A stretch of 64,000 nucleotides of DNA from Candidatus Altimarinota bacterium (GTDB taxonomy: Bacteria; Patescibacteriota; Gracilibacteria; BD1-5; UBA2023). Shown here piece after piece: positions 18,448-64,000 of the stretch. The notes under the pieces are model-generated. The model saw nothing but the letters and a program-made list of their open reading frames with translations, had not been told where the DNA came from and did not search any database. Numbering within the stretch: the first letter of the stretch is position 1; every line of letters starts with the position of its first letter. The stretch covers positions 124,001 to 188,000 of the forward strand of contig JAQTWX010000001.1 in assembly GCA_028689065.1 (NCBI GenBank). The letters are read 5' to 3'. A program made the position numbers and the translations under genes.

Positions 18448-20520
18448 ATGAAAAAATATTTTCTTTCTTTCTCGCTTCTCTCATTTCTCTTTATTCCATA
18501 CATATATGCCGCTCCAAGTTTCTCTTCTCCGATACTCGGGGAAGCTTACAGACAGGTTAATATCCGAATCGATCAAAAGGCGAGTAAAATCTCACTTAAT
18601 ACGGATGTAAAAAAGAGCATAGAACAAAAAAAAGAACAACTTTCAAATACGCTTGTCGCGATCGACAAAGCATTTCAGAAACGTAATAAAACAGAACTTA
18701 GTAAACAAGCAAGGGTTTTTCGCAATGAATGGAAAGAAATACTTGCTTTTATCGGAAATCTCGAAAAGATACACACTCCCGTTCAAACTGTTCAATCGAA
18801 TGCCCAAAATATTACTAAAGATTCAGGGATTGCAGGAACCCCTACTGAGATTACTTATTATGCAGACTTCTTTGAATGAAGGAAAACTGCAAATGGGAAT
18901 TATTTTTCACAGGCATATTTTTCTGCCGCCGCGTGTGAAATTCCATTCAATACTCTCGCACAAGTAGGAAAATGAAATAATTCTATTATCGTTAAAATAA
19001 ATGATCGTCCGAATTGTTCAAAGTATCCAAATGTTACTGATCTGACTAGCACAGCATTTGCTACTCTTGGAAACCTTTCAACAGGAAGACTTCAATGAAA
19101 TCTCAATCTCCTCTGAACTGTTCCAAAGGACTATATAAAGAAAAATTTAGAAACTAATATCTTCCAGGAACTCGGAATCACCCTTGATACTCATATACCG
19201 AATACATATCTCAAGAATGAAACTATCCATATAACAGGGAGAGAGCTTCTCTGAAAAGATTATACTATTCTCTATCTCAAATCCCCATCTGGAAAAGACA
19301 TTACTCTCGGTTCAAAAAAAGATTGAGACGAACGTTTCGAATATAATTATCCTCTTGAAGAAATCGGAACCTATCAGATGGTAATAGCTTCTGGAATGGG
19401 ATTCAATACCAGTACTTTTGTGGATATCACTGTTCTCGATGATGCTCTTTTTTCTGAAAAAAAACGCATTACCAATACAAATACTCCTGAAAAAATTGAA
19501 AAACTCAATATAGAACGATTGGAACTTCCTGATCTTACCGCTCTATATCTCTTACACTTTACTTCTCCAGACTTTCATACCCTCACGATTACAAATGGAA
19601 ATACCGCTTTCATCTATAGAGGGTTTGGTACCATAGCTCTCAAAAGCAATGATCTTGTCTCTCTTGATCTCAAAACTCCTCTCTCTGTAACGGTCACTTC
19701 CGAAAAAAGCTCCACTTCCTTTTCTCATGATACTTATACAGTTCCTGTATCTATTTTTAATAAAACAATGATTCTCTCCCCTGGATATCGGGAAGAGAAA
19801 AATGAAAATATTATTATAAAGGAAGAAAACGGAAGCCTTATCATCACTGGACTTATTTCCAAAGGGAAAAATGTGAAAAATGAAATTATGCTCACTCTTC
19901 CAAATGGGGATGTGGAGAAATATGTCTTTGGTACTGAAAGTATCGATACCGACAAATATCTCAAACGTGAAAAGGTATTTACAAAAACTATCCCTTTATC
20001 GCAAATTGGAACCTATCTCGTAGAAATGAATTATGATAATGGCTTTGCTGCATATAATGGACCTATCATCTATGGAGATGTACTTCCTCTTGCACCAAAT
20101 AACACTGATGGATTACAGAAAACTATCGGAAATAATGACAGTTCTATCGTTGCAGAAGAATCCCTTTCATTCGTCAATGCTCTGCGTGTAAAATCTGGAA
20201 AATCCACACTCGTGCTCGATGATACTCTTACGCTCCTTGCAAACATCAAGGCAAATGATATGGCCCAACATACTAATCTCTCTCATACCGATTCATATGG
20301 TGATAAGATTAGTGGAACCGCAAAGCGAAATAATATCCCCTTTACCGGAAGTATCGGAGAAAATATAGCCTGAGGAAATATACACTTCAGTATGCTACTC
20401 GTCGGACTCGCCAACAGTGGAGGACATCGAGCAAATATGCTCGATAATTGGACAAAAATGGGAATAGGATATGCTGTAAAAAATGGGCAAGTGTATTACG
20501 CTCAAATATTTGGAGAATAA
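18448..20520 (+). CDS. exported protein with DPBB (RlpA-like) and CAP domains
   Basis: A 690-residue protein. The signal peptide covers residues 1-22 (KKYFLSFSLLSFLFIPYIYA). A helical stretch is followed by a double-psi beta-barrel region at about 140-235 (YFSQAYFSAAACEIPFNTL, then TDLTSTAFATLG and STGRLQGNLNLLG). The middle part is beta-rich. A CAP/SCP domain at about 565-690 contains FVNALRVKSGKSTL, GENIAGGNI and GGHRANMLDN. Seven or more UGA codons are read as Gly. It is probably a cell-wall or surface protein; RlpA-like domains bind or cleave peptidoglycan, but activity here is unproven. It ends TAA. Confidence 0.85.
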
Positions 20521-20621: not shown

Positions 20622-23192
20622 ATGAAAAATCTTCTCAGTTCTCTTGGGCTTATATGAGTCCTCTTCTTCTCATTTTCTGTGGTTCATGCTGCAGATGATG
20701 CAATCTGTATACAAATGATACAAAATGCTACAAATGCTACAACTGGGGAATGTAAAGCTTTTCCTACTCCTTGTGATGTTCCTGCCGGATGGAATACAGT
20801 CGATAGTTGTTCTATAGATTCTGGAACTGGACTTGTTATAAATGGGGTAAATCTCGGATCTTGTAAGAATTATTCCGATGGATGTAATACTTGTAACATC
20901 GGAGCAAACGGTCTTGCTGCTTGTACTATGAGATATTGTATACAAGCTGGAACACCAAAATGTCTTGATACTGATACCCAACTCACAGATATTGAAAAAA
21001 ATCAACAAGATAGTACCACAAAAACTCTCACAACAGATTTTAAACTCAAAACTTTTAATAGTTGTGCCAATATGGAGAGTGTTATGAAAAATTTCATAAA
21101 AGATTATTACAATGCTCATCCCTATAATATGGGGTACTATGGAGGTCGCGGAGGTGGAATTATGGTACCGATGATGGAAGATACTCTTATGAAAACAACC
21201 TCACCACTACCAGCTATCACTTCTTCCGATACTGGGAAAGGTGCAGGAGCTATAAGTGCTACTGATATTTCCAATACGAATTTACAAGTTGCCGGAGTGG
21301 ATGAATCAGAGATTATCAAGACTGATGGAACTAATCTTTATTTCTACAATAGCAAGGATCATAGTGTCTATATAGCGAAAGCCTTCCCTGCAACTGAACT
21401 CTCAATCGTACGAAAAATCAAAGTTCCAGAAAGTTTTATCGAACCAAAACTCTTTCTCCAAGGAAAAAAACTTATTATTCTTTCAACTAAATACAACAAT
21501 GTCGATTATGGATACCGATACTGGTTCAATAGACAAGTAAAAACAGTAGTTGTAGTCTACGATATAAGTGACTTGAATAATCTTCGAATCGACAGATATT
21601 ATGAAACAGATGGAAATATTGTTGAGTCTCGTATGATTGGAAAATACCTTTATCTCCTTTCCCGATCTGATTTTTCTTTCCCTTACCCTCTTTATTATAA
21701 ATCAGCAGCAGATTGAGGGGTTCCTGTTTTTGATGAATCTAAATTCAATACCGATTTTATAGGTTCTACTATTAAGCCTTTAAAAGTAGAACTTCGAAAA
21801 ACTACAATAGAGAATGAAAAAAACTTTAAATTAAAAGGAAAACTTCTTCCGTACAATCTGAGTCAGAAAGATAATGCTGTATGTGCAGACATAGAATACG
21901 TTCTTCCAGATACAGAAACCATGAAACAATTCGAATTCACTCCGAGTCTTGCTACTCTTTCCATCATAGATACTGAAGATGCAACAAAAGAAACGAAAAC
22001 CAAGGTGCTCTTTGGGGATGTAAGTCAGATTCACATGAGCCTCTCTAGTCTCTATATTACTTCTCATCTTTCCACAAGTTATGATTTCCGATGTACTCCC
22101 GGTATATTCTGTATGATGCCCTATTATAATCGAGGACAAAATACTCTCATTCATAAACTCTCTATAAAAGATGATGCTGTTTCTTATATGGCCTCTATTA
22201 TTATTCCTGGTTCTCCTCTCAATCAATATTCTATGGATGAGGAAGCCACGACCAGAAACTTCCGAATCGTTACAAGTCATAATTATCCAGAACAATCCAC
22301 TGAACTTTTTGTTCTCGATCCTACGCTTCAAATGATTGGAAAGCTCTCAGGTATAGGAACAGGTGAGAATTTTCAAAGCTCTCGATTTATCGGAAATCGA
22401 TTGTATCTCGTGACTTTTAAACAAATTGACCCATTTTTTACAATAGATTTGAGTGATGCTAAGAATCCTAAGATTCTCGGAGAACTCAAGATTCCTGGAT
22501 ATTCTACTTATCTTCATCCATATGATGCAACACATCTTATCGGAATCGGGTACGATACAAAGATAAATCAATGGGGAGGAACACAAAATAATGGAGTCAA
22601 AATTGATCTCTATGATGTAGCAGATGTCACAAACCCTCAACAACTTTCTACGCTCACACTCGGAGATATGGGCTCTAGTTCAGAAGTTCTTCAGAATTCT
22701 CGACTTTTCACTTGGTATGAGAAAAAAAATCTCCTCTTCCTACCAGCAACCCTCATGACAAATGCAAATGACACAATCGATACCTATCGAAATAAGAATG
22801 CCTGGCAAGGAACTGTTGCTCTTAGTATAACAACAAAGAATGGTATACAAGAAAAAGTACGCATTACTCATATAGATACTTCCTGAATGGAACTAAAACG
22901 TGTAGAAGACTGTAAACAGTATTCTCAAGTCAGCAATAAACCTGTTTGTAAAAAAATTATCGGCGGAGGAGAATATTGCACGAGTCCGACACAAACTTAT
23001 GTCCCTCCTTACTGTTATACTGACTCCCCTATAGGAGAATACTTTGCAAATCAACTTTGGAACTTTTCGAATGATTTTATTTCTCGAAACCTCTATCTCG
23101 ATAATACGCTTCTTACTGTAAGTAACAATAAAATACAAGCGAATAATATAGAAACAAGCTATATAAAAATAGGAAGTGTTGAAATGAAATAA
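20622..23192 (+). CDS. secreted beta-propeller domain protein
   Basis: An 856-residue exported protein. The signal peptide (residues 1-23) itself contains a UGA-coded Gly. A Cys-rich N-terminal part follows (about eight cysteines in residues 25-140). The rest matches the bacterial beta-propeller family distantly related to WD40 (TNLQVAGVDESEIIKTDG at the start of the domain). A late Cys cluster is at 760-800. UGA is read as Gly before GVPVFDESK and before MELKRVEDC. It ends with TAA and a terminator. Function unknown; surface adhesion or protease-inhibitor-like roles are guesses. Confidence 0.82.
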
Positions 23193-28102: not shown

Positions 28103-30439
28103 ATGGCAAAAGGACAGTTTTCAGAAACCGATGTATGCTCTAAGTTCATAACACCAGCACTCCATACTGCCTCTTGGTCGGAAACTCAAATCCGTCGCGA
28201 GGTTTCTTTTACAAAAGGGAGAATCAAAGTAAAAGGTAAGACAGTATCTCGTGGCGAAACCAAACGAGCTGATTATATACTATATTACAAAAGTCACCTC
28301 CCCATCGCTATTGTGGAAGCCAAGGATGATTCTCATTCGATTGGTGACGGTATGCAACAAGCACTTGGCTATGCCGAAACTCTTGATATTCCGTTTGTGT
28401 ATTCTTCAAATGGTGACGGATTTTTGGAGCATGATCGTACGAAAACCTCCGGCGCCATTGAACGCGAAATCCGAATGGAAGAATTTCCTTCGCCAGAAGA
28501 GCTCTATAAGCGGTATCGAATAGCAAAAGGCTTGGATGAGGAAATAGAAAAAACTATAATGGAACCCTATTATGAAGATGGTGGCGGCAAAGGACCTCGT
28601 TATTATCAGCAAATAGCCATTAACCGTACTATTGAAGCCGTGGCCAAAGGGCAAGATAGGATTCTGCTTGTTATGGCAACGGGTACGGGGAAAACTTACA
28701 CTGCTTTTCAGATTATCTGGCGTCTTTGGAAAGCGAGAAAAAAGAAACGTATTCTTTTTCTTGCCGATCGAAATATTCTTGTTGACCAGACGATTACAAA
28801 TGATTTCAAGCCGTTCGGTGATAAGATGACAAAAATAGAGAACCGTAAAGTCGATACAGCTTATGAGATTTATCTCGCTCTTTATCAAGGATTGACCGGC
28901 GGCGAGGAAGATAAAAACGTATTCAGGCAATTTTCCCCGAACTTTTTCGATCTCATAGTAATCGACGAGTGTCACCGGGGAAGTGCGAGAGAAAATAGTG
29001 AGTGGCGAGCGATATTGGATTATTTTAAGGGCGCAACTCAAATCGGACTGACCGCAACTCCGAAGGAGACTGAGGATGTATCTACACATACATACTTTGG
29101 TGATCCGATTTATACCTATTCCCTCAAACAGGGTATCGAGGATTGATTCCTTGCACCTTACAAGGTTATTCGTGTCGGGATGGATGTAGATGAATGATGG
29201 AGGCCTTTTAAGGGGCAACTTGACTATAATGGTACTGAAATTCCGGACAAGGTATATGAGCTTGGTGATTTTGATCGTAATATTGTCATTCGGGAACGTA
29301 CTGAGGCTGTTGCTAAGAAGATTAGTGATTATCTAAAATCGACTGATCGTTACTCGAAAACTATCGTATTTTGTGTAGATATCGATCATGCGGAGCGTAT
29401 GCGTCAGGCGCTTGTGAACGAGAATGCTGATGAGGTTGCAAAAAATCCAAAATACGTGATGCGTATCACTGGTGATAACGAAGAAGGGAAAATGGAGCTT
29501 GATAACTTCATCGATCCAAAAGAGCGTTATCCAGTAATTGCCACAACTTCCAAACTCCTCACAACCGGAGTGGATGCTCAAACTTGTCGTGTTATTGCAC
29601 TTGACTCTGTCATCAATTCGATGACAGAATTCAAGCAGATTATAGGGCGAGGTACTCGTATCAATGAGGCTTTTGGGAAATATTACTTCACTATTCTTGA
29701 TTTTCGAAAAGCGACCAACAAGTTTGCGGATCCGGATTTTGATGGGGAGCCAGTTGTTATCTATAAGCCTGGACCAAATGATCCAATTGACGGAGGCGAT
29801 GTTGGGTGAGTCTGAAAAGATGAGTGAACCGGAGAAGGTGGAACAGTTATTACCTGAGGTTGAGAAGGTTGAGGTAACGGACAAAAGAAGATTGTTGTGC
29901 GCGGAGTTCCAGTAAGTGTTTCCCAAGAACGAATTCAATATATCGGACCAGATGGAAAGCTTATTACTGAAAGCTTGAAGGATTATTCTAAGAAAAATAT
30001 CCTCTCGTCATATGCGAGTCTTGATGATTTTTTGAACGAATGGAACCACGTTGATCGCAAACTTGCGGTAGTGTCTGCTCTTGAAGAAAAAGGCGTGTTC
30101 TTTGAGGATCTTCAAAAAGAAGTCGGTCAAGATTATGATCCCTTTGATATGATCTGTCATCTGGCATATGATCGTCCGCCAATGACTCGAAAACAGCGTG
30201 CAGAAAAAGCTAAAAAAGGTGACTATTTTGAGCAATACGGAGAGCAAGCTCGTGAAATTCTCAACATGCTTCTGGAAAAGTATGCCGATGAAGGTATCGA
30301 TGCAATTGAAGATATGAATGTATTAAAAATTAGTCCCCTTTCTCGCTTAGGTAGTCCGATTGAGATTGTCTCGATTTTCGGATGAAAAGAGAAATATCAA
30401 GCCGCAGTTCGAGCACTTGAAACGGCACTCTATCAATAA
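28103..30439 (+). CDS. hsdR: type I restriction enzyme, R subunit
   Basis: DNA translocase and endonuclease subunit, 778 residues. Nuclease motif at residues 52-74 ([10 protein letters not shown]...IAIVEAKD). SF2 helicase motifs: Walker A ATGTGKT at about 193, motif II DECH at about 292 and TATPKE at about 323. The second RecA domain has the TTGVDAQTC and IGRGTR motifs. A glycine-rich linker (about 570-596) contains six UGA codons. Further UGA at 29144-29146 and 30383-30385. It ends with TAA 18 nt before hsdM. Confidence 0.95.
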
Positions 30440-30457
30440 TTTAACCAAAAAGAATTC

Positions 30458-31885
30458 ATGTCGAATATATCAGCTATTGTAAAATCTATTCAGGATATAA
30501 TGCGAAAAGATGCCGGAGTAGACGGTGATGCTCAGCGTATTGGGCAAGTTTCCTGGATGCTCTTTTTGAAAATCCTTGATGATCAGGAGAAAAATCTGGA
30601 AATTCTCCGGGACGGCTACGTTTCGCCAATGCCGAAAGAGTGTAAATGGCGGAATTGGGCAGCCGATAACGAAGGAATGACGGGTGATGAACTTGTTGAA
30701 TTCGTAAACGAAAATCTCTTCAAACGCCTTCGTAGTCTTCCATTCGACCGCGAGAACCCGATGACTGGAATTATTCGCGGGGTTTTTGAGGACTCGTTCA
30801 ATTATATGAAGTCCGGAGTGCTTCTACGACAGGTAACGAATAAGATCAATGAGATTGACTTCACTAAGAAGGCGGAACTTCATCTTTTTAATGAGATTTA
30901 CGAAAAAATCCTGAATGACCTCCAATCTGCCGGTAATGCCGGTGAATACTACACTCCGCGTGCGCTTACCCAGTTTGTCGTGGATATGGTAGCGCCGAAG
31001 CTTGGAGAAAGTGTTCTCGATCCCTCTTGTGGAACCGGATGATTCCTGACGTGTACTATCGAACACATTCGTTCAAATTACGTAAAATCTCCGCATGATG
31101 AGCTGATTCTTCAAGATTCGATTCGTGGAATCGAGCTGAAACAACTCCCTCATTTGCTTGCGACCACCAATCTTATCCTTCACGGGATCGAGTGTCCTAC
31201 TAGACTTCGGCACGACGATTCTCTTTCTCGTCCGATAAAGGATTATGGTCCGGAAGATTCCGTAGATACCGTGGTTACCAATCCTCCGTTTGGAGGGCAG
31301 GTTAAACCTGGGATTGTACATAATTTTCCGAGTCAGTTCCAAACAGCAGAAACGTCATTTCTTTTTCTCGTACTCATCATGACCGTCTTGAAGTCGGGAG
31401 GACGAGCAGGAGTGGTACTTCCGGACGGATTCCTTTTCGGAGAAGGGGTTGCTACACGCATCAAAGAAAAGCTCCTTACTGATTGCAATCTTCATACTAT
31501 CGTTCGATTGCCAAACGGAGTATTTAGTCCTTATACAGGGATTACAACCAATCTTCTTTTCTTTACCAAGGGTGAACCAACGAAGGAGGTTTGGTACTTT
31601 GAACATCCGCTTCCACCTGGGATCAAGAATTACAGCCGATCGAATCCTCTTAAAATCGATGAATTCAATGAGGAGAAAGCTTGGTGGAATAATAGAAAAG
31701 AAACGGAAAATGCTTGGCGCGTCGGAATCGATGAAATCAAGGCACGGAATTTCAATCTCGATATCAAGAATCCGAATCGGAAAGACACCAAGGAAATTCT
31801 CGACACCAATGAGCTCATAAGTGCGATAGAAGCAAACTTCAAGGAAGCGACTGAGATTTTAGAAAAGATTAAATCCAACATTTAA
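30458..31885 (+). CDS. hsdM: type I restriction enzyme, methyltransferase subunit
   Basis: A 475-residue N6-adenine methyltransferase. HsdM N-terminal helical domain (residues 1-150), SAM motif I DPSCGTGGFL (UGA codes for the second Gly of the GG pair, 31040-31042) and catalytic motif TNPPFGG. It starts 18 nt after hsdR and is followed 4 nt later by the MazF-like gene. It ends with TAA. Confidence 0.96.
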
Positions 31886-31889
31886 CACT

Positions 31890-32333
31890 ATGGAAGAAAA
31901 ACAATTCGATACTTGGAATGATGAAAAGAAAGCCATCGAGCTTGTTGATACGGAGAAAATCGTCTGCAAACGACGACAGTTCTGGCTTTGTAAAATCGGA
32001 GAAAATATCGGATCCGAGATATCGAAAAACGACCCATTTGTCAGACCGGTACTCATACTCAATGAGCGCCTTCGATGAGGCTTGGTAGTAGCCGTTCCGC
32101 TTACAACGAAATTCAAAGAGCACTCCAAGTGGGCATACTATCCCATCATAGATGGTGCGAAGTTTGGTCTCAATGCGGAATCGTACTGTATTCTCGATCA
32201 GATGAAAATCATCAGCAGAAAACGACTTATACGGAAACTCAATGACATGGAGTGACCGGATGGAGAAGAAATTCCTTTATTTGACAAGGAACAATTCATG
32301 AAAGTCGTGAAAGGAGTGCATGGATTTATATAA
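31890..32333 (+). CDS. PemK/MazF-like toxin-family protein
   Basis: A 147-residue protein with the MazF fold signature: an N-terminal basic QFWLCKIG strand where MazF has GDIVWVDLG, followed by RPVLILNE, VVAVPLTTK and the late ILDQMKIISRKRLIRKL. MazF proteins are sequence-specific endoribonucleases. Two UGA codons are read as Gly. It is embedded between hsdM (4 nt upstream) and hsdS (133 nt downstream), with no recognisable antitoxin gene. The extra 20-residue N-terminus might substitute. It could also be a non-toxic nucleic-acid-binding relative. Confidence 0.8.
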
Positions 32334-32465
32334 CAAAATCGATCCGGAGTTTTAGCTCCGGATCTCAGGTGATCGCGTCTAATCGACCGATCGAATGTAC
32401 AGGTATTATATCCGGATCCGGATAAAAAGCAAACAAAAAGTATAGTCGTAACCATTTTGGGCATC

Positions 32466-33782
32466 ATGGGTTGGAAAACTGTAAAAATAGGAAAGTTCCT
32501 TATCGAACGAAAAGAGAAATACTCTCCGGAACAAGCGAATTCTCTGAATATGCCTCGGCTTGAAAAGATAGATTTTTCTGGACGGTTTCATATTGCTGAA
32601 TCCAAGAAGACCTGAACTGGCATGATTTGTATCAAGCCCTCAGATCTTGTTATCTCATGAATCAATGTTGAGAAGGGTGCTCTTGGTATTTATGAAGGAG
32701 AATCAGATATTCTTGCCACAATTCACTATTCATCGTATGAGTACGATAAAAATCAAATCGATATAGACTATCTTCGTTGGTTTGCAAGGAGTTCTGAATT
32801 CAAGAGAATTCTCCGAGAACAAGTCGGTGGAGGAATTAAGACTGAAATCAAGCCAAAGAAATTTCTATCCCTTGAAATATCGTTGCCGGATATAGAAGAA
32901 CAGCGAAGTATTGTTCAGTCGATATTATCCGTTCAGGAGGATATAAACAAGGTTAATAGTCTGAATAATAAAAATACTGGATTTGTAGCAAATCTACGTT
33001 CTTCCATTCTCCAAGATGCAATACAAGGTAAACTTGTACCACAAGATTCATCTGATGAACCTGCAAATGTACTCTTGGATCGGATACAGAAAGAAAAGGA
33101 GGAGCTTGTGAAATCTGGGAAAATCAAGAAACAAAAGGAATTGTCTCCGATTAAGTCAGAGGAGATCCCTTTTGAATTGCCGAAGGGGTGGGAGTGGGTA
33201 AGACTCGGAGAATTGTTGTTATTGTCTGAATATTGATCGGCAGAAAAAGCGAATACTGATGAGTCAGGGGTGCCTATGTTTAGGATGGGGAATGTACAAA
33301 AATGAAGCCTTACCTACGACGACTTCAAGTATCTAAACAGAAAGGCAAAAGACCTACCGAAGCTGTACCTAAAAAAGAATGATCTCCTTTTTAATAGGAC
33401 GAACAGTTGGGAACTAGTTGGGAAAACGGGTATTTTTTTATGAGATGACGATTCATATACTTTCGCAGGCTACTTAATCCGTCTGAGATCATCTTTTCTC
33501 ATATCTCCCATTTTCATAAATTACTATTTGAATTCAGATTTTTTTAGAAAAACACAAATCGAGCCACAAATCATTCAACAATGTGGGCAAGCAAATTTTA
33601 GTGGTGGGAAATTGGTTGAAACTCTATGTCCACTCCCACCAGCATCGGAACAACTTCATATCGTAGAAAAAGTGAGCGAACTTTTCACTTACTGTGATGT
33701 ATTGGAATCATCTACAAAAGATGCTTCTGAGGCAAGTGAAAAGTTATTGGAAAGCGTATTGGCAAAAGTCTTTAACCCGTAA
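32466..33782 (+). CDS. hsdS: type I restriction enzyme, specificity subunit
   Basis: A 438-residue DNA-recognition subunit with two target-recognition halves. Each half ends in a conserved helical spacer (LPDIEEQRSIVQSILSVQE at 139-157; LPPASEQLHIVEKVSELF at about 393-410). The phrase LPKGWEWVRLGE begins the second half. Five UGA codons are read as Gly. Its ATG lies 133 nt after the MazF-like gene; the gap contains a small hairpin on CCGGAG. It ends TAA, 3 nt before the next ATG. Confidence 0.92.
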
Positions 33783-33785
33783 TGT

Positions 33786-35969
33786 ATGATTACAAAAATC
33801 ACCCTCAAACGGGTTGCGAGCTACGGGGAAACACCCGCAATATTATCCACAGATAAACGGATCAATCTTGTATATTGACTGAATGGAACCGGTAAAACCA
33901 CTATTTCAAAGTATCTAAGGAATACAGGTGACGCCGAATTTTCCGAATGTTCTTTGGAATGACTTTCTGATGAGAAAGTATTGGTTTATAACGAAGATTT
34001 CGTTTCCGATAATTTCTACACGAAAGATGAATTGAAGGGAATTTTTACGTTGTCGAAGGAAAACAGGGAGGCAAGTGAGAAGATCGAAAACGCCAAAAAA
34101 GAAATTGCGAGACTGGATAAGGAACTGGAAGATGCTGAAAAGGGTTGCGGACTAAAAGTGGATCTGAATACAAAGAAGGAGCAGATAGACGAGCTCGAAA
34201 AATGAACACACGACGCGATTTGGAAAATCAAGGAAGAATATTCCTGAGGCGATCGTGTGCTCGAATTCTGTCTGACCGGAAAAAAGGGCAGTAAAAGTTC
34301 GCTATTTGAACACCTCAGGAGCATACAAAAACCAGTTACAACCCCATCAAAATCGACCGATATTCTCAAAAAAGAGGCAGAATCTATCAAGGAAGATGCC
34401 GAGTTGCTCGATGAGGATATTTCTGGAATCGATGATGTTTTTTCCCATATAGAGGCAAATTTATTGTTCCAGGATGCTATCGTTTGAAATTCCGATTCAC
34501 AGATTGCCGAGCTGATTCAGCGCCTCGGCAATGCTGACTGGGTTAGGAAGGGGCTCGAATACCTGCCTAAATCTCCCGAAGGACTATCAGATAACGTGTG
34601 TCCTTTCTGTCAAAGTGAAACGATTACTGACGATCTTCGTGATGAGATACGTGCATACTTTGATGAAACCTATGCACAAAACATAGATTCATTGAAGGGC
34701 TTGCAAATTTCATATGAAAAGTGATACCAACTCGTCGTCGATGCCTTTTCGGCGTATCTGTTGCATCCGATGGTCAAAGAACAGGAAAGTGAGTTCAAAT
34801 TAAAACACGGAGCTTTATTAAAAGTTCTCGATGAAAATCGAGGAAAGATTACCGCGAAGATATCCAACCCGAGTCAAAAAGTAACTCTTCTTGATTCAGC
34901 CTCATTTATATCGGATTTTAATGCATTCCTAAAAACCATTACGAATCATACCAAGGTTTTCAATGAAAAGATACGCGATCGTGAGAAAACCAAAAAAAGT
35001 ATTGAGCGGGAATTCTGGGAAATTATGAGATGGGGGTACGATCGGGATATGGAAGATTATGAGGATAAATCGAAACGATATCTTGCAGATCTTAAATCAA
35101 TCGAGACAAAGATTGCGGAAACTAGGGGGTTTATAGAAGCCCAGAAGGACGTTATCAAGGAGGCTCAGAAAGAAATCGTTAATATCGATGAGGCGATCGG
35201 GAGGATAAATTCCCAATTACTCCTCATGTGAATCGAAGGGTTCTCCATAGCCAAAGCGACCAATAACTCGTACAAACTGAGTAGAAAATGATTCGAGAGT
35301 GCGAAATTCAAGTCTTTGAGTGAGGGTGAGAAGACAGTTATAAGCTTCCTCTATTTCCTCTACCTGTGCGAATGACGCGAATCGGAAAGCGAGGTCTCTA
35401 TGAAGAAGATAGCTGTCATAGATGACCCAATTTCCAGCTTGTCCCATATTTACGTTTTCAATATTGCCCAACTGATACGGGATCGTTTTTTTGACGGAAG
35501 CTACGAGCAAGTATTTGTCCTGACTCATAATCTGTATTTTTTTCATGAGCTTTTGCACAAAAAGAAAGATTCAGAGGCAAAGCTATTTAGACTACATAAA
35601 GCCGACGTTACGACGATTTTTGAAATGGACCGTCAGGAAATACAGAATGAATATCAATCGTATTGGCAGATTATAAAAGACTACAAAGCAAGTCGGGCCT
35701 CCGAGGTACTGTTGGCAAATGCCATGAGAAACATTTTGGAACGCTTTTTTGGGTTCATCAATAAACACAATTTCAATGAACTCACCGCAGAATTGTGAAA
35801 AGATGAGTGATACAGGTTTTTCATACGTTATATGAACAAGGAATCCCATTTTGACGCTATAAATATTTCCGACTCGAAAGAAATAGACTGAACTATTTTC
35901 TTAAATGCTTTTGAAAAAGTCTTTACTGATGCGGATTTCAAAGATCACTACGATACCATGATGGGATAA
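33786..35969 (+). CDS. RloC/PrrC-like anticodon nuclease
   Basis: A 727-residue ABC-type ATPase with a C-terminal nuclease. Walker A GLNGTGKTT at 31-39 (first Gly UGA), long coiled coil interrupted by a zinc-hook CPFC at about 274, LSEGEK signature, Walker B AVIDDPISS and FVLTHN H-loop. Near the C-terminus Arg648, Glu652 and His688 match the R-x3-E...H catalytic triad of PrrC/RloC. RloC cleaves and excises the wobble base of tRNA on phage attack. Placement right after hsdS, 3 nt apart, is typical. At least nine UGA codons are read as Gly. It ends TAA. Confidence 0.9.
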
Positions 35970-59651: not shown

Positions 59652-60971
59652 TTAGAAGAATTTTTTGTAATCATAACTCTTCAGTTCTGTATCTACTCGA
59701 CGAATAAGTTCAAGAATTACTCCGACAACGATAATAAGTCCAGCTCCCGAGATAAGAAAATCAATCTGTCCTCCAGCTCCCGATGTATCAAGAATCTGAA
59801 CAACTCCATTGAGTTTCGACATAAGGTAAGGAAACACTGCAATGAATGCAAGAAATGATCCTCCGTAGAGATTCAAATGAAGGGAAGTTTTTTCAAGATA
59901 TTCTGCTGTCTCTCGCCCTGGACGAACTCCTGGAATATATCCACCTCGCTTCTGAATACTTTCAGCAACCTCATCTGTATTAAATACTATAGAAACATAG
60001 AAGAAAGAGAATCCAAGTACAAGAAGGAAGTACACTCCAATATAGAGCCAACTTGGATTATTCATAGAGAAATATTCAAGAAGGAACTGTCCAATTTGAG
60101 CAGAAGTACCTGCTCCACGATTTGAGAGAACCTGCCCAATAAGAGCTGGGAAAGTTACAATAGAAACTGCGAAGATGATAGGTATCATTCCGGCTTGATT
60201 AACTCGGATTGGAAAGTAAGACTTTTCATCTCGTCCTGTTCGAGTATAAATAAGAGGAATTTTTCTAAACCCTTCTGTAAATTTAATAATAATATATATT
60301 ACTATAAGGGTCATAACGGTAAGTATCGCAAGAAGTGTATAATTCTGAACAGAAATATATTGCATAATATGAGAAGGAACTCCAGCAAGAACTCCAGCAA
60401 AGATGATCATAGAAGCTCCGTTTCCAATTCCAGATTCATTGATAACTTCTCCGAGCCACATAAGGAACATAGTACCAGCTGTGATGAAAAGCATTGCAGG
60501 AAGCACTACTCCCCAAAAATTACTCACATCCATAATCTTTCCACCTCCACCAATAAGAGTATTAAGAAGGATGATCATTCCGTAACTCTGTGCAAAAGCA
60601 AGAGGAACTGTTACCCAACGGGTATAGTTATTAATCTTTTTTTGTCCTTGTTCTCCTTCTTTTTTCATAGCCTCAAGTTGAGGAACAATAACCGCAAGAA
60701 GTTGCATAATAATGACCGCATTAATATATGGAGCAAGTCCCATAAGAACAATGGAAAAATGTTCAAGTCCTCCACCCATGAGAGAACTAAAGAACGCGAG
60801 TCCTTGATTAGCAGCAAGAAAGTCCTTGATAGAAAGGAGCGCAGTTGTATTTACCCCAGGAACTGGGATAATAGAGAGGAATTTATAAAGAATAATAATA
60901 CCGAGCGTTACGATAATTTTCTTCTTTACGTCAGAGGATTTCCAGATACGAGAAACATTCTTGAGAATCAT
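59652..60971 (-). CDS. secY: preprotein translocase subunit SecY
   Basis: Central pore of the Sec machinery; 439 residues with ten TM segments. N-terminal FLSIIPVPGVNT, plug region, GNGASMIIFAGVLAGVP in TM5 and the C-terminal cytoplasmic loop KRGGYIPGVRPGRETAEYL. No UGA. It ends TAA. In most bacteria secY follows rplO directly; here an 838-residue gene lies between them. Confidence 0.98.
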   Translation of the reverse strand: MILKNVSRIWKSSDVKKKIIVTLGIIILYKFLSIIPVPGVNTTALLSIKDFLAANQGLAFFSSLMGGGLEHFSIVLMGLAPYINAVIIMQLLAVIVPQLEAMKKEGEQGQKKINNYTRWVTVPLAFAQSYGMIILLNTLIGGGGKIMDVSNFWGVVLPAMLFITAGTMFLMWLGEVINESGIGNGASMIIFAGVLAGVPSHIMQYISVQNYTLLAILTVMTLIVIYIIIKFTEGFRKIPLIYTRTGRDEKSYFPIRVNQAGMIPIIFAVSIVTFPALIGQVLSNRGAGTSAQIGQFLLEYFSMNNPSWLYIGVYFLLVLGFSFFYVSIVFNTDEVAESIQKRGGYIPGVRPGRETAEYLEKTSLHLNLYGGSFLAFIAVFPYLMSKLNGVVQILDTSGAGGQIDFLISGAGLIIVVGVILELIRRVDTELKSYDYKKFF

Positions 60972-61057
60972 AGAATATAGTACGATAGAGATAAAATGGT
61001 CTGTTTAACGCTCGGATTGTATGAAAAAGTATGGTTTAGTCAAGTTTATTCACGAAT

Positions 61058-61096
61058 AATAAAAGTACCCCCTTTCATAAAGAGAGTACTTTTATT
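61058..61096. terminator. intrinsic terminator
   Basis: AATAAAAGTAC (61058-61068) and its complement (61086-61096) form an 11-bp stem between secY and the 838-aa gene; it may uncouple the two. Confidence 0.6.
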
Positions 61097-61121
61097 CAAG
61101 AGAAAATAACATATTTCATAA

Positions 61122-63638
61122 CTATTTCTTTTGCTTTGCTTCTTTGATTCTTTTAGTATGTTTTTCATAAATTCTTCTTGCTTCCCCTTCTCCTATAAGT
61201 TGTACAAGTGGCTTATTAAAGAAGTCATCTGGTACTTGATCAAATTGTGCTCTTTGAAACGAAGACTGTGCATCTTGTTTTTCAGTTATATTATTAATGG
61301 CTTTAATAATGTCAATGAGTGTACGTGATCGAGCTATTTCTTTTGAAATAATAGGGATTTCCCGTATGGTATTTTTAATTTTTTCAATAACATATCTTGC
61401 AATCTCTGGAGAAACACCAAGACTATCTTTATAACTATATGTCCAATTTTCTATTGTAAATAATGCCTCTTCTTCTGGATATTTTTCTAATTTCATAACC
61501 GTATCTTTTGGACTTATACAAAGTGCTGTGAAGATTCTTTCCCATTCTTCTCTTTTATCTAAAGCCGCGGCTTCTTTAATAAATTTATGTTGTCCTGATT
61601 CTATTCATTCTTTGTGCATTTCTCGAGCTCGCAGCTCTCAAGCAGTTTCAGAGAATTTTCCAGAAAGGATAATAATGAGGCGTTTGCCTATCAGGGAAAT
61701 CTCTTCAGAAGACAGGGAAATATTATCTCTCTCTTGTCCAAAAGGAATAGAAAGAATAGCATTAAATATACGACTGTTACGCTCTATTGTAGTTGAACGT
61801 ATAGATTTTACATACAAATTTGCTTTATTCTCAAGCAGTTTCCGAATTTCAGCAGATACATATATATAAGGCTTGCGTTCACATTCCTCAAGTGGATAAC
61901 CAGAAATCTGAGCTTCTTCTGCAATAGATCCGGATATTTTTGCCCCATGGAGGGACTTTCCTCAAATTTTGACATTTTTCCCGCAAAATGACCCACCTCC
62001 AATGTAAGCATCTTTAAGGGCTCATTCTCCTATAAATACCGTATCGGAATTAACAGTATAGAACATTCCATCTGTTCCAGTATTTCCTAGTAGATAGAAT
62101 TTTTCTGGTCAGTCTATCATTACCACTTTTTGCATCCCCCCTTGTGCAGTTATTTTTGGAGATATACAATTTTTTCCGACTATAATTGAACCCTGGAAAG
62201 ATGTATTTGTTGTACCATTATGGGTATACATTGGTATTGTAATTCCTTCCCCTTCATTACTGAGATTTTCTGTTTGTGTTATAGAAATAGTATTTCGAAA
62301 TGAGTCCATAAAAGTAGTACCAAAAAACTGAACAGCCCCCATAGAATAATCAAAAGAGCCACCTATAAGTTCTTTTGGAGCAAATTGTGCTCCTGGATGA
62401 AAATAAGAACGTTTACCTATCCCATCACAAATAGATCCATACAAAGACATATCATTTCTATTACTTGACTTGCAAGGAAGCCAATTGGAATCACCAAAAC
62501 AGATGATAAATTCTCCGTGATGAAATGCTCAAGGAGTGATACTACGAGCATTTCGAAATGATCCATGACCAGATGAATATGCAGCAACTCAGAGATATTC
62601 TTCTTTTTCTCCTGGTTCTTTTTCTTTTTGTAACCATTCTTTTGATTTATCGGTGGTTTCTATATATGAACAAGAATCTTCATAATAAGAATATGCTCAA
62701 ACATTATCAGAAAAATCTACACTTATACGATTCTTTTCCATACTATATAAATCATCACTATCAATTGGATTAAGTGCTCGATCAAAAGTTGAGAAAAAGA
62801 GGGTATTCATTCGAAATTCATTTCTCTGATGCACACGATGAGCAGACACTCTTGAAAACCAGAAACGTTTTCCTGTATTCTCTTTTGGAATTTTTGAAAG
62901 ATATTCTTCATTTAGATCTGCACCTAATCCAAACCAACAAGAAGAATCATGAAAATAATTTGGAACTTCCGATACTTCATAGAGAATAGTTCCGAGAAAT
63001 CCATAAACAGGATGATTTGGATGAATCCGTCAATAAGCGTTTTTAAATTGATCTATAAAAAACTTTTTCATTTCTTTTGGAAGCTTTCCTCAAGTTCCTA
63101 TGAGTTCTTCAATAAAGCGTTTTTTTAAAGCATGTAGTATCTTATTTCGTCATATATGCGAATTCGGGGAATGAAGATTATGAACTTCGAAACGAAAATA
63201 TTCAACATTCATAAGAGCGAGAATAAATGGTTCCAATTCCGAAAGAATACTTTCTGAGATATCGGTTTCTTTATTTAACTCAGCAAGTTCAGCAAGAGAA
63301 GTCTTGGCAGTCTTGTCGGATAATACTTGATTTGCACGATTGCGTGTTTGAACAATAAGAAGTTCCTTTATATAAGCTTTTCGAAGTTTTTCCACAATAT
63401 CATTTTCTGATGTAGATGTTACAGAATCTTGAAGATATGAAATAATCCGTTCGTTAGCAGTTTCAGTTTCATTTTTTCTTTTCGGGAGCTTTCTCTCAAT
63501 AATTCTCTTTGCTTGTGGTCACTTTATAAACCCTTGTACAGGAAGATCTATTTTCCCTTCTGGAAAAATCTCCCCCATAAGAACCTTTTTTGAAGGAATT
63601 TCTTGCGCTAGATTAATGGTCGTAACGAAAGAGTTCAT
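61122..63638 (-). CDS. hypothetical protein, 838 aa
   Basis: Large protein with no recognised family. Residues 1-160 are helical and charged. The middle (about 350-640) is Gly-rich and beta-like, with repeated short strands such as FIGEGALKDAYIGGGSFCGKN and KIGGKSLHGAKISGSI that suggest a left-handed beta-helix or similar solenoid. The C-terminal 200 residues are helical and basic. No signal peptide or TM. About fifteen UGA codons are read as Gly. It ends TAG. It sits between rplO and secY, an unusual place. Confidence 0.75.
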
Positions 63639-63740
63639 ACTTTCTGAATAAATAATAGAATTACATTTCCTTTATCCTACCATATAAATACTATTTTTAC
63701 AAATATAGCGATTTTTTCAATACAAAAAGTATATATTTTA

Positions 63741-63770
63741 AAAAAACCTACTCATTTCGAGTAGGTTTTT
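63741..63770. terminator. intrinsic terminator
   Basis: AAAAAACCTACTC and its complement form a 12-bp stem with T run, right after the rplO stop on the minus strand. It would end the ribosomal protein transcript before the 838-aa gene. Confidence 0.8.
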
Positions 63771-63782
63771 TATTGAAAATTC

Positions 63783-64000
63783 TTAAAGAAGTTCTACAGT
63801 TCCACCAGCTTTTGTAATCTTCTCTTGAGCTTGAGCAGAAGCTTTATGAACACGAACAGTTACTTTTGCAGTAATATCTCCATTTCCAAGAAGCTTAATA
63901 AGAGCTCCGATATTTGGGATAAGACCCTTTTCTACAAGTACTTCGCTATCGATAGTTGTAACACCATCCTGAGCAAGTTTCTCTAATGTTGAAACATTAA
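63783..64000 (-). CDS. rplO: ribosomal protein uL15, C-terminal part
   Basis: The last 71 codons of L15, running off the window's right edge. The end reads KLLGNGDITAKVTVRVHKAS and finishes with AGGTVELL before TAA, as in other L15 proteins. It marks the end of a ribosomal protein operon. No UGA in the visible part. Confidence 0.93.
   Translation of the reverse strand, partial: NVSTLEKLAQDGVTTIDSEVLVEKGLIPNIGALIKLLGNGDITAKVTVRVHKASAQAQEKITKAGGTVELL

Follow-up and report, generated by a model that had tools for sequence, protein, structure and literature searches.

A gene without a known family at the rplO-secY junction of a Gracilibacteria genome

Background

In most bacteria, the boundary between rplO and secY lies inside the spc operon. 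Small insertions between ribosomal operons have been described as the usual first step of operon separation in a survey of Gammaproteobacteria and Bacilli; in the portion of that survey considered here, the worked insertions fall at other boundaries, and one species only is named as having secY outside the spc operon (PMC8046335). The locus described in this study resembles those insertions, as far as that portion describes them, in that a small insert parts neighboring ribosomal operons while the operons themselves stay intact. Unlike them, it occurs in Gracilibacteria, at the rplO-secY boundary, and involves the gain of an orphan gene. A search of the open-licence literature, by title and start of abstract, found no paper on the rplO-secY boundary in Gracilibacteria.

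At the protein level, the described structures that best match the core of a homologue include the Qnr/MfpA-type proteins QnrB1, MfpA and AlbG, as well as the beta-helices of autotransporters and tailspikes, which are secreted or virion proteins.

Results and discussion

The DNA analyzed here, a stretch of 64,000 nucleotides referred to as the window, is part of a 209 kb contig in a 1.04 Mb genome assembly of 24 contigs (genome G000). An 838-residue protein had been predicted between rplO and secY, and an intact 838-codon frame is indeed present there at 61122-63638 on the minus strand (product P0001), identified by an ORF scan with TGA read as glycine, with 12 TGA codons and a TAG stop. The frame is open under translation tables 4 and 25 and measures 849 codons from stop to stop, with just 11 extra codons 5' of the start. 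TGA has the meaning glycine in the Gracilibacteria group. In an alignment of the four family proteins introduced below, 44 of the 102 residues opposite TGA positions are Gly and none are Trp; the tryptophan reading (table 4) was dropped for the glycine reading (table 25), towards which these residues lean in an alignment that was itself built with TGA as G and that contains some TGA-to-TGA pairs. The description of the gene as UGA-rich proved too strong: TGA accounts for 12 of its 61 glycine codons (20%) versus 171 of 1261 (13.6%) across 50 window ORFs picked by a simple script, the gene itself among them, and the share is at least 25% in 18 of these 50, placing the gene inside their range. 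Its GC content is 0.34 versus an ORF mean of 0.40 (sd 0.044), and its GC3 is low, at 0.195 versus a mean of 0.37 (sd 0.095). This composition would fit a gene at home in a TGA-as-glycine genome, perhaps originating in another such lineage.

Upstream of the gene is rplO (L15), of which the C-terminal part (63783-64000, minus strand) supplies 71 residues before the gene runs past the window edge. Read from the contig, rplO is 151 amino acids in full and is the last member of an S10-spc type ribosomal gene run. Downstream is secY (59652-60971, minus strand; PF00344, E 4e-93), then an exonuclease-like gene and dnaJ, all of these neighbors except rplO and secY having been named by eye. Terminators had been proposed on both sides of the gene, and folding and inverted-repeat searches do place a strong, terminator-like hairpin on each side, both on the minus strand. 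The first follows rplO at 63741-63771 (perfect 13-bp stem with a 5-nucleotide loop; -15.9 kcal/mol, z -5.65), the second follows the 838-codon gene at 61058-61096 (arms of 18 nucleotides, 89% complementary; -20.1 kcal/mol, z -5.07), and neither was equalled in any of 200 shuffles. A consensus terminator scan of 60900-64000 returned no sites, though we read this as the scan having missed both hairpins because the T run is itself part of the stem, where it pairs with an A run. A promoter scan picked up TTGAAA-16-AAAAAT (9/12; 63693-63720, minus strand), a weak promoter-like site 5' of the gene; such sites numbered 17, versus 11.6 +/- 3.9 in shuffles, which is no clear excess. The gene's own promoter is weak, and this counts against reading the gene as a transcription unit of its own. 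The secY promoter, TTGACT-16-TACAAT (61016-61043, minus strand), is identical in all seven genus members, whether or not they carry an insert, and their alignment positions it between the 3' hairpin of the gene and secY.

The same signals bear on the suggestion that a ribosomal operon was broken into by the gene, which is not supported. The junction is empty in five congeners (G001, G002, G003, G004 and G006), and in each of them a hairpin already separates rplO from the secY promoter, three of these hairpins being called by script and two by eye (the script missed visible ones in G001 and G003). Given that hairpin and promoter are both present where nothing has been inserted, two transcription units appear to predate the new gene, and the earlier state of rplO-secY in the genus, as judged by its signals, would have been a pair of units. 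The newcomer would then sit between them and interrupt nothing. Judged likewise on signals, the proposed insertion of an independent unit holds up, given the gene's own 3' hairpin and its absence from this place in relatives. Separation of rplO from secY is common but not universal in the taxonomic family (f1), of which 14 empty junctions were viewed: in G009 the two genes almost abut with no hairpin, and in G007 a mere hairpin remnant is seen, while the hairpins of G010 and G015 were misplaced by the script and read by eye. No repeats around the insert stand out as a target-site duplication or as element ends, and no mobile-element marks stand out; as such, no mechanism of gain was seen.

To place this junction in a wider setting, we compared 118 genomes with domain matches to L15 and SecY. 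Both matches are on the same contig and strand in 102; 14 genomes have the genes on different contigs and two lack one of the matches. The gap, taken as the distance between domain matches rather than between gene ends, is 221-481 bp in 94 of the 102, 626 bp in one (G045), and 829-3036 bp in five. In the remaining two (G031 and G019) the pair is far apart on the same contig, and these were left outside the Fisher test below. The largest gap, 3036 bp, is that of the window genome. The other four gene-sized gaps are found in a member of the same genus (G005) and in three other genera (G013, G020 and G024), and all five belong to family f1. Gene-sized gaps thus occur in 5 of 21 f1 neighbors and 0 of 79 others (Fisher p 0.0003, or 0.0014 counting G045 as an insert), a comparison that covers the rplO-secY boundary alone and genomes that are related to one another. 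The gene itself is absent from this place in all six congeners, whose SecY proteins are 93-97% identical within the genus. Fixation of the gene here across the phylum, the pattern opposed to a predicted insertion, was looked for and did not occur, since rplO and secY matches lie within 481 bp of each other in those 94 of 102 genomes.

In G012, a genome set aside in the survey, other genes precede secY, and a 770-aa Beta_propel protein is encoded near it (L045). The window likewise encodes an 856-aa Beta_propel protein (20622-23192), which adjoins a CAP + DPBB_1 protein (18448-20520).

The proteins inserted in the five genomes show no relationship to one another, the strongest match between any two being at E 0.034 across 59 residues. 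The G005 insert is 234 aa with no Pfam match; those of G013 (305 aa) and G024 (140 aa) have exported-protein-like starts, as read by eye; and that of G020, 531 aa long, weakly resembles methyltransferases (PADLOC MTase_II, E 0.0004) and precedes a second ORF. In all four, the insert follows the rplO hairpin and precedes a promoter-like sequence of secY, these signals being read by eye except for the aligned promoter of G005. Directly downstream of secY, G005 has a second extra gene, encoding a 23S rRNA-intervening-sequence four-helix protein (L042:2215-2565, minus strand; PF05635, E 1.8e-33). The second ORF of the G020 gap is in another frame, and the two together (L047:3685-6085) are perhaps one broken restriction-modification gene. 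The window has a likely type I restriction-modification region of its own at 28103-35969, including an HsdR-like protein (28103-30439; ResIII, EcoEI_R_C) and an AAA_13 protein (33786-35969) that is perhaps anticodon-nuclease-like.

These comparisons weigh on two other accounts of the gene. It could function within the spc operon, sharing a transcript with rplO or secY and serving ribosome assembly or protein export, as its strand and its location between the two would allow. However, no conserved place in the operon was found for it: the other four gene-sized gaps contain unrelated proteins, six congeners with nearly identical SecY have the place empty of the gene, and its homologues are located elsewhere. 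Together with the hairpins on both sides and the promoter kept by secY, this renders such a role highly improbable. Equally improbable is an assembly error in which a foreign piece was joined between rplO and secY. A single genome carries the gene at this place and its GC3 is low, both in keeping with a misjoin, but the closer contig end is some 21 kb away, neither joint falls within the conserved signals that flank the gene, its TGA usage resembles that of other window ORFs, and four relatives have other genes at the same junction.

To get an evolutionary perspective on the gene, we searched for its relatives. Searching 99 genomes, among them G000, with the single sequence identified three homologues (E 4e-14, 3e-9 and 9e-8), and a profile of the resulting four proteins (P0001-P0004) recovered the same four from 353 class genomes, placing homologues in 3 of the 352 other genomes (G001, G006 and G023). 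A core profile applied to 79 genomes at E<=5 added no members to these four, and the full profile found G000 only among 379 genomes drawn from the phylum, both sets overlapping with the 353 class genomes. A species-genome scan yielded three loci, which probably correspond to the same three homologues. In G001 and G006 the homologue is between a peroxiredoxin gene and typA, whereas in G023 it is beside hflX at a contig end (neighbors named by eye).

The G001 and G006 copies are about 51-52% identical to each other, and each is 44-49% identical to that of G023, which belongs to another genus and whose SecY is about 75% identical. The window copy is only 25-28% identical to the other three, even though G001 and G006 are congeners with SecY in the 93-97% range. 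For this reason it is probably no plain orthologue, and these values agree better with an old paralogue or with a copy acquired by transfer. At the locus shared by G001 and G006, TypA is 95% identical and three other comparable neighbors 64-88%, versus 51% for the family gene, which therefore appears to evolve fast. The gene upstream of typA agrees in G001 and G006 only, among six genus members compared (none was found for G003), so that much of the rplO-secY pattern may likewise stem from gene-order turnover in general. A promoter-like stretch and a small T-run hairpin before typA, a possible attenuator, recur in the genus (L059, L060, L061, L062, L063 and L064, by eye).

The window gene had also been called unknown, and this is borne out: searches of P0001-P0004 against Pfam, NCBIfam, PHROGs, PADLOC and PDB sequences gave nothing over cut-off. 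P0001 has no Pfam family at E<=10, the four proteins have no PADLOC family at E<=1, a single PDB chain appears at E 0.073, under cut-off, and a Cas6 model matches P0003 at E 0.13, far under its own cut-off. The hexapeptide left-handed beta-helix model PF00132 reaches E 0.037 with a window segment (14.2 bits versus a cut-off of 27).

The gene was called solenoid-like, and this stands for the center of the protein, by way of a homologue, but not on the model of P0001 itself. AlphaFold2 run on full-length P0001 with the four sequences gave a mean pLDDT of 32, which is unusable; the two ends were drawn as helices and the middle as strands. The core of P0002, which is 23% identical to the window core, was modeled with three relatives at a mean pLDDT of 53, rising to 70-87 over model residues 211-270 and 291-370, with strands every 9-10 residues in the last third. 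By this guide, residues 1-222 (62973-63638, all coordinates on the minus strand) are helical in the very low-confidence model; residues 223-370 (62529-62972) hold much of the similarity to homologues, including DN.GAY and DSC motifs; residues 371-592 (61863-62528) are glycine-rich (14.4%) and, by homology to the relative's modeled core, would form a beta-solenoid; and residues 593-838 (61125-61862) are mostly helical in the very low-confidence model and longer than in homologues. Hydrophobic residues appear to have a modest preference for spacings 5 and 10: over seven overlapping stretches, z is +0.2 to +3.7 at lag 5 and +0.5 to +3.2 at lag 10, and control stretches reach up to +2.0 at other lags.

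Foldseek found no match to the homologue core at E<=0.001 in PDB or BFVD. VIA-align, run on the best 184 Foldseek-ranked chains, gave Z 11-13 with several beta-solenoids: 13.0 with QnrB1, 12.8 with TibA, 12.6 with MfpA, 12.5 with AlbG, 12.3 with Ag43b and 11.9 with the Sf6 tailspike. As modeled, then, the homologue core is a beta-solenoid to which several kinds tie within 1 Z.

The matches to QnrB1, MfpA and AlbG, together with the preferred spacings, could point to a Qnr/MfpA-type pentapeptide-repeat protein, a DNA mimic guarding gyrase. We consider this very unlikely, as TibA and Ag43b score within 1 Z of QnrB1, and no pentapeptide repeat model (PF00805, PF13576, PF13599) attains its curated cut-off, the best being PF13576 on a segment of P0003 (E 0.26, 12.0 bits versus 27). 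As for the quadrilateral beta-helix fold of such proteins, the homologue's model scores Z 13.0 with QnrB1, but other solenoids come within 1 Z of this. A test for tandem pentapeptide patterns was weak, shuffles reaching the best run in 5% of cases for P0001, 25% for P0002, 4% for P0003 and 14% for P0004. The family also differs from these proteins in its extra parts at both ends. The net charge of the solenoid part is -4, +1, -2 and +3 in the four proteins; this is no acidic excess, which tells against DNA mimicry.

TibA, Ag43b and the Sf6 tailspike share the solenoid arrangement of the homologue core, and raise instead the prospect of a surface or phage-type beta-helix protein such as an adhesin or tailspike. 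Unlike autotransporters and tailspikes, the family proteins show no export signal: neither a hydrophobic N-terminus nor a membrane helix is seen, no 19-residue stretch in any of the four has a mean hydropathy >=1.3, and the few codons open upstream of the start leave P0001 little room for one. The best PHROG match of P0001 is at E 0.072, and none of 25 candidate stretches from a scan of viral contigs is a relative. With BFVD also lacking a match, a surface or phage role seems unlikely, if less so than gyrase protection.

The explanation that we favor, and hold to be somewhat better than an even bet as a whole, is that the gap separating the rplO terminator from the secY promoter acquired an accessory gene, coding for a solenoid protein, as an independent transcription unit. 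Its genomic part, the gain of the gene as its own unit in the rplO-secY gap, is very probably correct. The signals on either side are intact, and the lineage-specific accessory gene would have come by horizontal transfer or be an old paralogue kept here. The product would be soluble and cytosolic, with helical ends around a central beta-solenoid. It is conceivable that it acts as a binding scaffold for a fast-changing partner, in host contact or in conflict with phages or mobile elements; this part of the explanation we put forward tentatively and think rather doubtful.

Conclusions

As gene gains go, this one is ordinary, but the protein family that it involves is unusual. The rplO-secY order, regarded as deeply conserved, is within this genus already divided by its signals into what would be two transcription units, and in several relatives unrelated genes have settled in the gap between them. 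The analysis also marks out a small, apparently fast-evolving family with a predicted beta-solenoid core, found in four genomes so far. A more far-reaching reading, which we regard as a long shot, is that unrelated accessory genes arrive at and leave the rplO-secY boundary of this Gracilibacteria family, which would make it a preferred docking site, and that the orphan solenoid family is a fast-evolving, one-gene cassette for conflict or host contact that moves between terminator-promoter gaps. If such gaps were indeed preferred docking sites, they would offer a simple place to seek lineage-specific genes in reduced genomes.
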